Source of the DNA: Desulfatiglandales bacterium
GTDB taxonomy: Bacteria > Desulfobacterota > DSM-4660 > Desulfatiglandales > HGW-15
Assembly (NCBI GenBank): GCA_030145585.1
Contig: JAQYVK010000302.1
Span: 1 to 37,604, forward strand
Length of the DNA stretch: 37,604 bases
Reading direction: 5' to 3'
Below are positions 21,205 to 24,300 of this stretch, piece by piece. A program made the position numbers and the translations under genes. A model generated the notes under the pieces. It was not told the DNA's origin. It did not search any database and saw only the letters and a list, made by a program, of their open reading frames with translations. Position 1 is the first letter of the stretch. Each line of letters opens with the position of its first letter.

Positions 21205-22060
21205 GTTTGAATGTCCCATGAGCCGGTACACGACGTTTCGTGTTGGGGGGCCGGTGGAGGCGCTCTGTATTATCAGTGATTTAGAGGGCCTACAACGGAT
21301 GGTCCCATATCTTGGGCGGGAGAAGATCCCTTACTTGGTGGTTGGTCGTGGAAGTAACCTTTTGGTTAGAGACGACGGGTTTAGAGGCGTTGCCATCATC
21401 CTGCGGGAAAAGCTGGCCCATGTAGAACCGAACGGGAAAAGTAATCAAATCGTTCTGGCCGGTGGCGGGTTGGCCCTGTTTGAGCTTCTCGATTACTGCA
21501 AAGGGAAGGGCCTTGGGGGATTGGAGTTTTTAGCAGGTATCCCCGGAACGACGGGCGGGGCGGTGGCCATGAATGCGGGCGCTTGGGGGTGCGACGTGGG
21601 AAGTCGGGTTCAACAGATACAAATCGTCACTTCAAAAGGGGAATTAGAGACGTTGGAACAGTCCCGTCTGAAATTTAAATACAGGGCCCTGTCGATACCA
21701 AAAGGTTCGGTCATTACAAGCGTTAAATTTGAATTGAATCGAGAGAGCCCCGAGGCCGTTATCGGTAAGCTTTCAGAATATCTCAAGAAGCGGCATGAAA
21801 AGCAGCCTTCACAATACCCGAGTGGTGGATCGGTGTTTAAAAACCCCCCCCAGGATTATGCAGGAAGGCTTATTGAAAAGACGGGGCTAAAAGGAAAAAG
21901 GGTTGGAGGGGCGATGATTTCTCCAAAGCATGCAAATTTTATTGTAAACACCGGGGGAGCCAGGGCAGCAGATATCCTGGCCCTTATGGATCTGGCCCGA
22001 AAGAAGGTGAAGGAGCAGATGGGGGTCGAGCTGGAACCGGAGATAAGGGTGATAGGATGA
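21152..22060 (+). CDS. murB: UDP-N-acetylenolpyruvoylglucosamine reductase MurB
   Basis: MurB is the FAD enzyme that reduces enolpyruvyl-UDP-GlcNAc to UDP-MurNAc with NADPH. Seen: YTTFRVGGPVEAL, the FAD-binding VVGRGSNLLVRDDGF, LAGIPGTTGGAVAMNAGAWG, the YPSGGSVFKNP segment with the catalytic Ser, HANFIVN, and EPEIRVIG with the catalytic Glu at the end. It is a type II enzyme by its 302-residue length. ATG 21152 is chosen because AAAAGG lies about 8 nt upstream; TTG 21146 is in frame. It overlaps murC by 53 nt and ftsQ by 4 nt. Confidence 0.96.
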   Translation: MDQRQKKELVEILQKGVEFECPMSRYTTFRVGGPVEALCIISDLEGLQRMVPYLGREKIPYLVVGRGSNLLVRDDGFRGVAIILREKLAHVEPNGKSNQIVLAGGGLALFELLDYCKGKGLGGLEFLAGIPGTTGGAVAMNAGAWGCDVGSRVQQIQIVTSKGELETLEQSRLKFKYRALSIPKGSVITSVKFELNRESPEAVIGKLSEYLKKRHEKQPSQYPSGGSVFKNPPQDYAGRLIEKTGLKGKRVGGAMISPKHANFIVNTGGARAADILALMDLARKKVKEQMGVELEPEIRVIG

Positions 22061-22878
22061 AAAGGAGATCTGTTCTCAAACGCCAGACTGTTCGAAAGAA
22101 AAGACGGAGTAGACTCACGCCGATTTGGAAGACGATATCCTTGATCGGAGTTTATTTCATTAAATTTTCATGCGTGGTGATTGTTCTGGTTATGATCAGT
22201 TTGGTTTTCGTATCACTATATGAATATTTGATCCAATCCCCATACGTAAGATTGGAGCGTGTTGTTTTTTCCGGGGTCGACGAAGACATGAGAAGTGAAC
22301 TTATTGAGTTAGCAGGGTTGAATCCCGATTTGAGCCTATTAGAAATTGACCTAAAGGAAATAAAGGAAAGCATGGAGAAGCATCTCTGGATTAGATCTGT
22401 GAAACCGGAAAAACGCTTTCCTCATACATTGGCAATCAGGGCGGAAAAAGAAGAATCCCGGGCTGTAGTGGTTATGGATAAATTGTATTTAATGAATCGT
22501 TGGGGGGAAATGTTCAAAGAGGTCGATCCGATGGGGGAGTTAGACTTCCCTATTATTACCGGTGTTTCTAAAGATAGAGCGAACAAAAGGACGCACCTGT
22601 TGCGTGCTGCACATGTGTTGAACATTCTAAGTTCTGAAAAGAGTCCCTGGTCCCTTAAGGATCTTTCCGAGGTCCACGTCAAAAGAGATGGAAATATTTC
22701 GCTCTATTTTACATCCTTTCCGGGGGTGATTCAGGCAAGGGGAAGGGATTTTGGATTCAAAATAGATGACTTGAAAAAGGTGGTCGAACATCTGGAACGT
22801 ACCGGACGTACTCAAATGGTCCGAGGCATTAATTTGGACTATCATGATGGAGCCGTCGTTTCATTTAAAAATAGTTGA
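22057..22878 (+). CDS. ftsQ: Cell division protein FtsQ
   Basis: FtsQ is the bitopic divisome scaffold that binds FtsL-FtsB. This 273-residue protein has a very basic cytoplasmic tail (about 1-28, many Lys/Arg), one membrane span (about 30-55), a POTRA domain beginning near residue 62 (VRLERVVFSGVDEDM), and the FtsQ beta domain (about 135-265) including LYLMNRWGEMFKEV. The order murB-ftsQ without ddl in between is seen. The start overlaps the murB stop (ATGA). It is followed by an unusual 198-nt gap containing the heptamer array. Confidence 0.9.
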   Translation: MKRRSVLKRQTVRKKRRSRLTPIWKTISLIGVYFIKFSCVVIVLVMISLVFVSLYEYLIQSPYVRLERVVFSGVDEDMRSELIELAGLNPDLSLLEIDLKEIKESMEKHLWIRSVKPEKRFPHTLAIRAEKEESRAVVVMDKLYLMNRWGEMFKEVDPMGELDFPIITGVSKDRANKRTHLLRAAHVLNILSSEKSPWSLKDLSEVHVKRDGNISLYFTSFPGVIQARGRDFGFKIDDLKKVVEHLERTGRTQMVRGINLDYHDGAVVSFKNS

Positions 22879-22919
22879 TGTCCTTTTCGAATTTTCGCCA
22901 CGCGATACGAGAGAATAAG

Positions 22920-23054
22920 AAAAGGTCCAAGGTATTAAGTAAAAGGTGTGAGGTTTACGGTTTAAGGCATACGGGTCGCGTAGTTTAGGTTTGTTGTTTG
23001 GGACCTTACACCATACACCTTATACCGTTCACCGTATGATACCACACACCGTTG
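22920..23054 (+). repeat. Inverted heptamer repeat array between ftsQ and ftsA
   Basis: Two blocks of imperfect 7-bp units face each other. Block 1 (22920-22975) has eight units in exact phase, mostly NNNAGGT (AAAAGGT, CCAAGGT, ATTAAGT, AAAAGGT, GTGAGGT, TTACGGT, TTAAGGC, ATACGGG). Block 2 (23003-23054) has seven units on the other strand (plus-strand ACCTTAC, ACCATAC, ACCTTAT, ACCGTTC, ACCGTAT, a 3-nt slip, ACCACAC, ACCGTTG). The centre is 22976-23002. The blocks can pair imperfectly into a long hairpin in the ftsQ-ftsA transcript. Similar heptamer repeats occur in several unrelated bacterial groups. Its function is unknown. Confidence 0.75.
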
Positions 23055-23076
23055 TTTTATCATGAGAGGATAGGCC

Positions 23077-24300
23077 ATGGGTGGAGATATTATTGTGGGT
23101 TTGGATATTGGCACGACAAAGATCTGTGCGGTTGTGGGTGAACTGCGACCCGATGCCATAGAAATCATCGGGATTGGAAGCCATCCTTCCGAAGGTCTTA
23201 GAAAAGGTGTCGTGATTAACATCGAAAAGACGGTAAATTCCATTAAGGAAACCATTGAAGAAGCAGAAACCATGGCAGGCTGTGAAATCAGTTCCGTATA
23301 CGCGGGTATCGCGGGTGGCCATATCAAGGGTTTTAACAGCCATGGGGTTATTGCCCTCAAAGAGAGGGAAGTTACGAAGAAAGATGTTGACAGGGCGATT
23401 GAGGCGGCCAGTGCAGTAGCCATTCCAATGGATCGTGAGGTTATTCATATCCTCACCCAGGAGTTCATAGTGGATGAGCAGGACGGTATCATTGACCCCC
23501 TCGGCATGGCGGGTGTTCGATTGGAGACGAAGATCCACATTGTCACGGGAGCCGTCACTTCCGCACAGAATATTATCAAATGCGCCAACAGAGCGGGACT
23601 GGATGTCTGTGATATCGTGCTTGAGTCCTTGGCATCCAGCGAAGCGGTGCTTTCCGATGAAGAGCGCAACCTTGGGGTTGCTCTCATCGACTTCGGGGGG
23701 GGGACAACGGATATGGCGGTCTTCTCGCGAGGGACCATTAAACATACGTCGGTTTTGGCCTTGGGCGGAGATAATCTCACATACGATATTTCCATAGGCC
23801 TGAGGACTCCGGGAAAGGAGGCGGAAAAAATAAAAATTAAATATGGATGTGGACTCACTTCCATGATCGAAAGGGATGAGACCATTGAAGTGCCGGGTGT
23901 AGGCGGCAGGAAGCCAAGGGTTTTATCCAGACAGATTTTGGGTGAAATCCTGGAGCCAAGGGTTGAGGAGATATTTACCCTCATACACAACGAACTGGTG
24001 CGGTCAGGTTATGAGGACTTGGTCAATTCAGGTGTGGTCGTCACCGGTGGTTCGGCGGAACTTGCAGGGATTCCGGAGATGGCGGACCAGATATTTAATG
24101 CGCCGTCGAGGAGGGGTTATCCCAGGGGGATTAGTGGCTTGGTGGAAGTGGTCAACAAGCCGATGTATGCGACAGCGGTTGGGCTTGTCCTCTACGGGGC
24201 AAAAAGGAGCAAGGAGGGTAAAAAATTTAGGATAAGAGATACCAATATTTTTGGGCGTGTCATGGAGAGAATGAAGAAATGGTTTAAAGATGTAATTTAA
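23077..24300 (+). CDS. ftsA: Cell division protein FtsA
   Basis: FtsA is the actin-like ATPase that tethers FtsZ to the membrane. Seen: the phosphate-1 loop VGLDIGTTKICAVVGE (residues about 8-23), the 1C subdomain following near residue 85, the phosphate-2 loop LIDFGGGTTDMAVF, and VVTGGSAELAG in the adenosine motif. The last residues, MERMKKWFKDVI, form the expected amphipathic membrane-targeting helix. The 407-residue length is normal. The ATG is preceded by AGAGGATAGG. The gene is 84 nt before ftsZ. The array upstream may separate its expression from that of ftsQ. Confidence 0.96.
   Translation: MGGDIIVGLDIGTTKICAVVGELRPDAIEIIGIGSHPSEGLRKGVVINIEKTVNSIKETIEEAETMAGCEISSVYAGIAGGHIKGFNSHGVIALKEREVTKKDVDRAIEAASAVAIPMDREVIHILTQEFIVDEQDGIIDPLGMAGVRLETKIHIVTGAVTSAQNIIKCANRAGLDVCDIVLESLASSEAVLSDEERNLGVALIDFGGGTTDMAVFSRGTIKHTSVLALGGDNLTYDISIGLRTPGKEAEKIKIKYGCGLTSMIERDETIEVPGVGGRKPRVLSRQILGEILEPRVEEIFTLIHNELVRSGYEDLVNSGVVVTGGSAELAGIPEMADQIFNAPSRRGYPRGISGLVEVVNKPMYATAVGLVLYGAKRSKEGKKFRIRDTNIFGRVMERMKKWFKDVI

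Follow-up and report, generated by a model that had tools for sequence, protein, structure and literature searches.

The array between ftsQ and ftsA

Why should two facing arrays of heptamers lie between ftsQ and ftsA, and do they belong to the control of the division operon or to something that has settled within it? The question is raised by a 37,604-nucleotide contig of a Desulfatiglandales bacterium, which was analysed over its whole length and is called the window below. The gap between the two genes (22879-23076) is 198 nt long, and the features in and beside it are as follows, where IVP denotes a protein of the PF05635 (IVP/S23) family.

22057-22878, plus strand: ftsQ, host flank, with matches to PF08478 and PF03799 (POTRA and FtsQ/DivIB domains)
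22914-22919, no strand: left A/T edge AATAAG (TAAATAAAAG), adjoining the array; placed from the sequence and the edges of other copies
22920-22975, minus strand: left array, eight heptamers of the ACCKTAH type, reading NNNAGGT on the plus strand
22976-23002, no strand: 27-bp centre, the place of the IVP gene in the gene-bearing element, from the sequence and comparison with L073
23003-23054, plus strand: right array, seven ACC-type heptamers, with a 3-nt slip (GAT) at 23038-23040
23055-23060, no strand: right A/T edge TTTTAT, common to other copies
23077-24300, plus strand: ftsA, host flank, matching TIGR01174

Domain matches confirm the identity of the flanking genes and the location in the division operon that the first-pass annotation had given, and ftsZ was likewise confirmed. 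The geometry it had described, with eight units facing seven around a 27-bp centre and a single 3-nt slip, proved exact when units were called by a position-weight chain, which returned eight in-phase units on the minus strand and seven on the plus strand. Across the whole window, the pattern (ACCNNNN)x2-ACC has four matches, compared with 0.15 expected from shuffled sequence, and all four fall inside this array. In long exact runs, retrieved by a search that required ACC, the unit has the consensus ACC(T/G)TA(T/A/C); of 132 units, 116 carry T at position 5, and variation is wide at positions 4 and 7 and smaller at position 6. As a run of head-to-tail 7-bp units in intergenic DNA, the feature has the form of the STRR heptamer repeats. 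It also shares two marks of IVP-type array elements, being composed of two inverted arrays of one 7/8-bp unit and having that unit in common with the arrays on both sides of an IVP gene elsewhere in the genome, C212 (ACCKTAH).

Tests of an RNA hairpin

The array had been suggested to fold into a long imperfect hairpin that could set the ratio of FtsQ to FtsA/FtsZ, a suggestion favoured by its position inside the operon and by the fact that some pairing is possible, if weak. The fold of the window copy is nevertheless ordinary, with a minimum free energy of -37.1 compared with a shuffle mean of -33.5 (z -1.1), and 28 of 200 shuffles fold at least as well. If the arms paired, their variable positions should match across the arms, and the match does not rise above chance: arm identity at these positions is 0.490 compared with a null of 0.479 (48 elements), and with a free offset it is 0.521, a value that 753 of 1000 shuffles reach or exceed, compared with a null of 0.532 (41 elements). 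A sequence scan located no terminator-like site at the array, and the array is absent from the two nearest relatives. A hairpin or processing element was discarded on the fold and arm tests, and it is most improbable that RNA structure here sets the ratio of the division proteins; what stands of the hairpin is a capacity for weak pairing.

Two simpler candidates were also set aside. No curated RNA family of Rfam matches anywhere in the window, which removes a known RNA family from consideration. A terminator or promoter role was dropped because there is no terminator-like site and because the two weak promoter-like matches at the array are two readings of one A/T-rich site.

Dispersal of the array in the genome

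The genome that contains the window (4.72 Mb in 623 contigs, 83.55% complete) holds many further arrays of the same polarity. Genome-wide, (ACCNNNN)x3-ACC has 165 matches compared with 14 for the reversed pattern, and (ACCNTNN)x3-ACC has 108 compared with none for the pattern read backwards. Within 61 stretches around the listed places (376 kb, window included, counted up to C522 and exclusive of the short stretches of C532 and C543), there are 79 elements, or about 80 dispersed intergenic copies. Fifty-four of them consist of a GGT-block followed by an ACC-block, one has this arrangement plus a further minus-strand block, 24 are single-arm, a class that includes arrays cut by contig ends or with a second arm below the cut-off, and none is reversed. 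None of the 79 lies inside a called gene, where the calls outside annotated records are those of a simple caller made for this analysis. A second unit type, ACCG(C/T)T(T/C), is found in the same genome and is also arranged in inverted arrays (L056:2626-2715, L069:1652-1743, L082:1185-1283).

The placement of 61 elements in tandem, divergent and convergent gaps (38, 19 and 4) is close to that expected from intergenic length (35.6, 19.2 and 6.2). A preference for divergent gaps, apparent when gaps are counted by number, is neutral per base pair and was rejected. The first-pass annotation had proposed a genome search for the heptamers, with random scatter through intergenic DNA and no effect on transcripts as the mark of a neutral repeat insertion; the search yielded some 80 intergenic elements in proportion to gap length, and for location the picture is largely that of neutral scatter. 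Adjacent units are barely more alike than random ones (0.50 within an arm, 0.463 between different arrays), and local or recent slippage, for which neighbouring units are hardly alike enough, is not an obvious source of the arrays.

A candidate partner gene flanked by inverted arrays

One array pair with the window's unit encloses a gene, C212 (L073:2082-2480). Its product, P0001, matches PF05635, the "23S rRNA-intervening sequence protein", as well as TIGR02436, a four-helix-bundle protein, and has a solved structural relative in 2gsc, which PMC4990558 describes as a homopentamer of four-helix bundles. On one side of the gene lies lexA and on the other a Y-family polymerase gene, and an ACCKTAH array flanks it at either end (scores 62 and 37). 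It is the only one of the genome's own 24 PF05635 loci so flanked on both sides; none of 14 control genomes has a PF05635 match.

The family is present in 55 of 61 genomes, which together contain 435 matches. From these, 113 genes were taken, mostly the best-scoring, and 8 were dropped for having less than 120 bp of flank, leaving 105. An array of 7- or 8-bp units lies no more than 220 bp from 85 of the 105 genes, and 53 have one at either side, compared with 2 and 0 of 30 PIN control genes from the same genome set, one of which (L332) lies near an IVP gene and was kept. At the threshold used, 20 of the 105 genes show no array. Other periods are rare beside these genes: on either side, periods 5, 6 and 10-13 are seen at no more than 2 of 105 genes, and period 9 at 5 and 6. 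Furthermore, the arrays are inverted with respect to each other. In 63 two-sided loci, the median similarity of the left array to the reverse complement of the right is 0.88, compared with 0.33 for the direct comparison and 0.35 between different loci; the inverted orientation is the better one in 55 loci, and the direct one is as good or better in 8. Different types of PF05635 gene carry different units. These sequence comparisons establish an association of arrays with PF05635 genes in the Desulfobacterales and in other phyla. A literature search that covered few subscription journals returned no publication joining the PF05635 family to heptamer arrays.

The feature between ftsQ and ftsA is probably a gene-less derivative of such an IVP-type element. 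An element of this kind would be short, with a pair of inverted arrays at its ends, each built of degenerate 7-bp units (8-bp in other lineages), and its gene-bearing form would hold one gene for a four-helix-bundle PF05635 protein between the arrays. The IVP ring protein may recognise the units and hold the two arrays together, and an element with or without the gene could thereby be copied or moved into the junctions between genes and into loops of palindromes already present, in which case the ftsQ-ftsA copy would be a tolerated passenger. Both the movement of the element and the binding of its units by IVP we infer from sequence. The earlier suggestion of a protein-binding array is retained in this form, with IVP as the putative binding protein.

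The lexA junction and the number of cognate genes

An IVP gene follows lexA in 9 of 30 lexA loci, and all 9 have a 7-bp array. The IVP at the lexA locus of G014 is of another type (31% identical) and has another unit. In G012 and G021 the lexA-polymerase gap is only 17 and 15 bp, and at the lexA site of G013 (218 bp, inverted), G025 (40 bp), and G028 and G040 (56 bp each) there are arrays but no gene that the query used could recover. Across relatives, the one lexA junction is thus met in three states: unoccupied, holding gene plus arrays, and holding arrays only. The cognate gene keeps its place beside lexA across families and looks stationary. Several genomes, drawn from different families, have IVP flanked by lexA and a Y-family polymerase gene (L073:798-3134, L383-L412), which raises the possibility of SOS co-expression.

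The same junction gives some encouragement to an explanation in which the arrays came first, as lineage-specific heptamers that slippage or recombination had spread, and the IVP gene inserts into them as cargo or as a homing gene. The lexA sites of G013 and G025 hold arrays without a gene, this genome has more sites with arrays alone than sites with a gene, and the gene is conserved in place while the arrays are scattered. Against this order of events, the low likeness of units within an arm is unlike slippage, the arrays stand inverted on both sides of the gene, and the period follows the protein lineage, being shared in 97-100% of pairs above 50% protein identity compared with about 57-65% below. 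We regard an origin of this kind as unlikely.

For the reading that we prefer, in which the array derives from an IVP-type element and lacks its gene, a correspondence between gene and unit is of interest. In the six relatives whose P0001 homologue is 62% identical or more, the ACCNTNN matches number 61, 20, 45, 19, 15 and 11, compared with a median of 1 in the other 54 genomes (Mann-Whitney P 9e-5), the exceptions being G014, G015 and G016, which have 28, 52 and 27 matches with no close cognate gene. The plain number of IVP genes correlates with the ACCNTNN count about equally well (rho 0.54 vs 0.53), so these counts are no proof of specificity. Between genomes, motif similarity follows protein identity weakly overall (rho 0.118, 15/500 permutations) and clearly mainly at high identity, where the median motif similarity of the seven pairs above 80% protein identity is 0.96. 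That similar IVPs agree in motif and period could also be due to common descent of whole elements.

Intergenic arrays in relatives

The ftsQ-ftsA gap was compared, as the first-pass annotation had advised, in 80 ftsA loci from named records, mostly Desulfobacterales and "Deltaproteobacteria" MAGs, together with strain NaphS2. Among the 69 loci in which ftsQ was found, the median gap is 49 bp, and in the two nearest relatives, whose ftsA is 90% identical, gaps of 20 and 6 bp hold no array. Arrays of 7 or 8 bp with other motifs are present in 10 of the 69 gaps, compared with a shuffle mean of 0.33 (maximum 2) and with 0-1 for other periods. A second arm is visible in some of these 10 gaps and not in others. 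A motif-free scan of intergenic DNA in the 80 loci recovered 50 arrays with 7-bp periodicity (1 in shuffles) and 24 with 8-bp periodicity (none in shuffles), and at most one array for each of the periods 4-6 and 9-13.

These distributions bear on the proposal that the arrays are selected, functional binding platforms for regulation or chromosome organisation, and that IVP binds DNA or RNA on the host's behalf and has no part in mobility. The unit behaves as a binding site might, with ACC and T kept and the other positions free to vary, and the reading frame is intact in each of the ten best cognate IVPs, at 56-100% identity. The positions of the arrays nevertheless follow gap length and not gap class, and arrays are not conserved at orthologous gaps, and such a platform is an improbable account of them.

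Palindrome loops and target sites

Many copies in this genome lie inside a nested palindrome beginning CCTGATCACCA. Array-free copies of the palindrome are about 124 bp long and have a short loop, and elsewhere the loop is replaced by an array element at the tip. The ~124-bp nested palindromic repeat itself (CCTGATCACCATCAAGG ... GAGGCGTA) is present in many copies with and without a tip array (L198-L201, L203, L101:2776-2899).

Insertion at palindrome tips was not upheld as a general rule. No outer palindrome surrounds 22 of the 54 two-armed elements, the window's among them, and for the other 32, which were flagged by a host-repeat flank motif, the inverted-flank score is 7.66 compared with 7.40 in shuffles (7/60), barely higher, in part because the shuffles swap flanks of the same repeat family. 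A target-site duplication signal in all 54 two-armed elements (6.83 vs 6.26) vanished once palindromic hosts were set aside, the 27 elements outside such hosts scoring 6.52 compared with 6.35 (7/60 shuffles); an 8/9 duplication-like match at the window element is suggestive only. A flank search made for the idea of an outer-repeat transposase gave 44 further places, of which the paired ones read as short copies. What the window element and C212 have in common is an A/T edge and inverted arrays, with no fixed long repeat.

The replacement of palindrome loops would also suit arrays written by end-extension at breaks or hairpin tips, through repeat-adding or error-prone synthesis by IVP and a polymerase, which would account for a fixed, inverted polarity and for arms that are independent of each other. 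The constant order of the blocks, the lack of correlation between arms and the location of the cognate IVP between lexA and a Y-family polymerase agree with such a process, as does the resemblance of IVP to Avd noted in PMC10053308. The fixed A/T edge and the shared centres point instead to the copying of whole elements, and the plasmid IVP genes examined have other neighbours; end-extension is a very improbable origin.

Relation to known elements

The gene-less derivative of an IVP-type element that we favour has a close counterpart in the intervening sequences (IVSs) of 23S rRNA, of which gene-less forms are also known. The two share a protein family, since the cognate gene and the IVS gene both belong to PF05635 and TIGR02436, and both have inverted ends. 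The 23S rRNA IVS lies in rRNA, whereas the window copy lies between ftsQ and ftsA and the cognate gene between lexA and the polymerase gene; its ends form a near-perfect 28-bp stem, whereas the ends here are arrays of degenerate 7/8-mers whose arms are not complementary at variable positions; and it encodes S23p/IVP, as does the C212 copy with its PF05635 gene, whereas the 27-bp centre of the window copy holds no gene. In PMC4990558, IVSs replace the tetraloops of 23S rRNA helices, much as arrays replace palindrome loops in some copies here. The same paper gives S23p no known function and quotes an earlier suggestion in which the IVS gene is a component of mobility, with which the association of arrays and IVP fits (PMC4990558).

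The STRRs of cyanobacteria are likewise multicopy 7-bp arrays in intergenic DNA, and arrays of this sort stand beside IVP genes carried by cyanobacterial plasmids. STRRs are heptamers, which to our knowledge have been described as repeats without inverted pairing or a gene partner. MITEs and REP/BIME elements are short, gene-less, multicopy and intergenic, and have a partner protein in trans. The array element resembles them in being short, gene-less, intergenic and multicopy (79), and in having a candidate partner protein in trans; it differs in that no target-site duplication was found, its ends are arrays, and its partner falls outside known transposase families. Avd is the partner of an error-prone reverse transcriptase. 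In diversity-generating retroelements, it is a related four-helix-bundle protein, and PMC10053308 states its similarity to PF05635. Short multicopy sequences of Nostoc, some of them readable as heptamer repeats, are tabulated in PMC2408588. The TAACTGA heptamers of the Beggiatoaceae are intergenic and occur in many sets, as here, but are direct repeats of one exact unit, with only one inverted set reported in what is accessible of PMC4679880.

It is conceivable, though we advance the idea with some doubt, that these are forms of one widespread class of mobile elements distinct from transposons and introns. In such a class, each ring-forming four-helix-bundle protein would recognise a 7- or 8-bp unit of its own, set out in a pair of inverted arrays, unit and protein would diverge together, gene-less copies would multiply in trans, and entry would often be by replacement of a hairpin loop, so that the 23S rRNA intervening sequences, the cyanobacterial heptamer repeats and the ftsQ-ftsA array would all belong together. 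Descriptions of heptamer repeats from several phyla name no partner for them, and a firm link with IVP would give both repeats and protein a testable role. It would also tie ribosomal intervening sequences to a much wider element family and explain many short repeats that are easily taken for regulatory hairpins, the division-operon array included. Facing arrays around IVP genes in distantly related bacteria point to a largely undescribed type of mobile-looking DNA.

Arrays beside IVP genes on plasmids

P0001 matches 19 plasmid records, from cyanobacteria and Riemerella, of which 14 were examined (H5, H10, H16, H17 and H18 were left out). All 14 have a 7/8-bp array beside the IVP gene on at least one side, and 8 have arrays on both. 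Among 65 control genes, which are other annotated genes of four of the same plasmids, exclusive of one avd gene, genes cut by the ends of the stretches and a few others, 9 have an array on any side and none on both. Several of the plasmid IVP genes lie within apparent operons, an arrangement likened to that of the C212 IVP between lexA and the polymerase gene.

Two minor observations concern the neighbourhood of these genes. A gene annotated as the avd of a diversity-generating retroelement, on an Anabaena plasmid (L430:10186-10539), has a 7/8-bp array on one side. In CRISPR operons of cyanobacterial plasmids (L414, L417, L421), IVP genes are found in the orders cas6-IVP-cas4 and cas10-IVP-cmr3, with 7- or 8-bp arrays adjoining.
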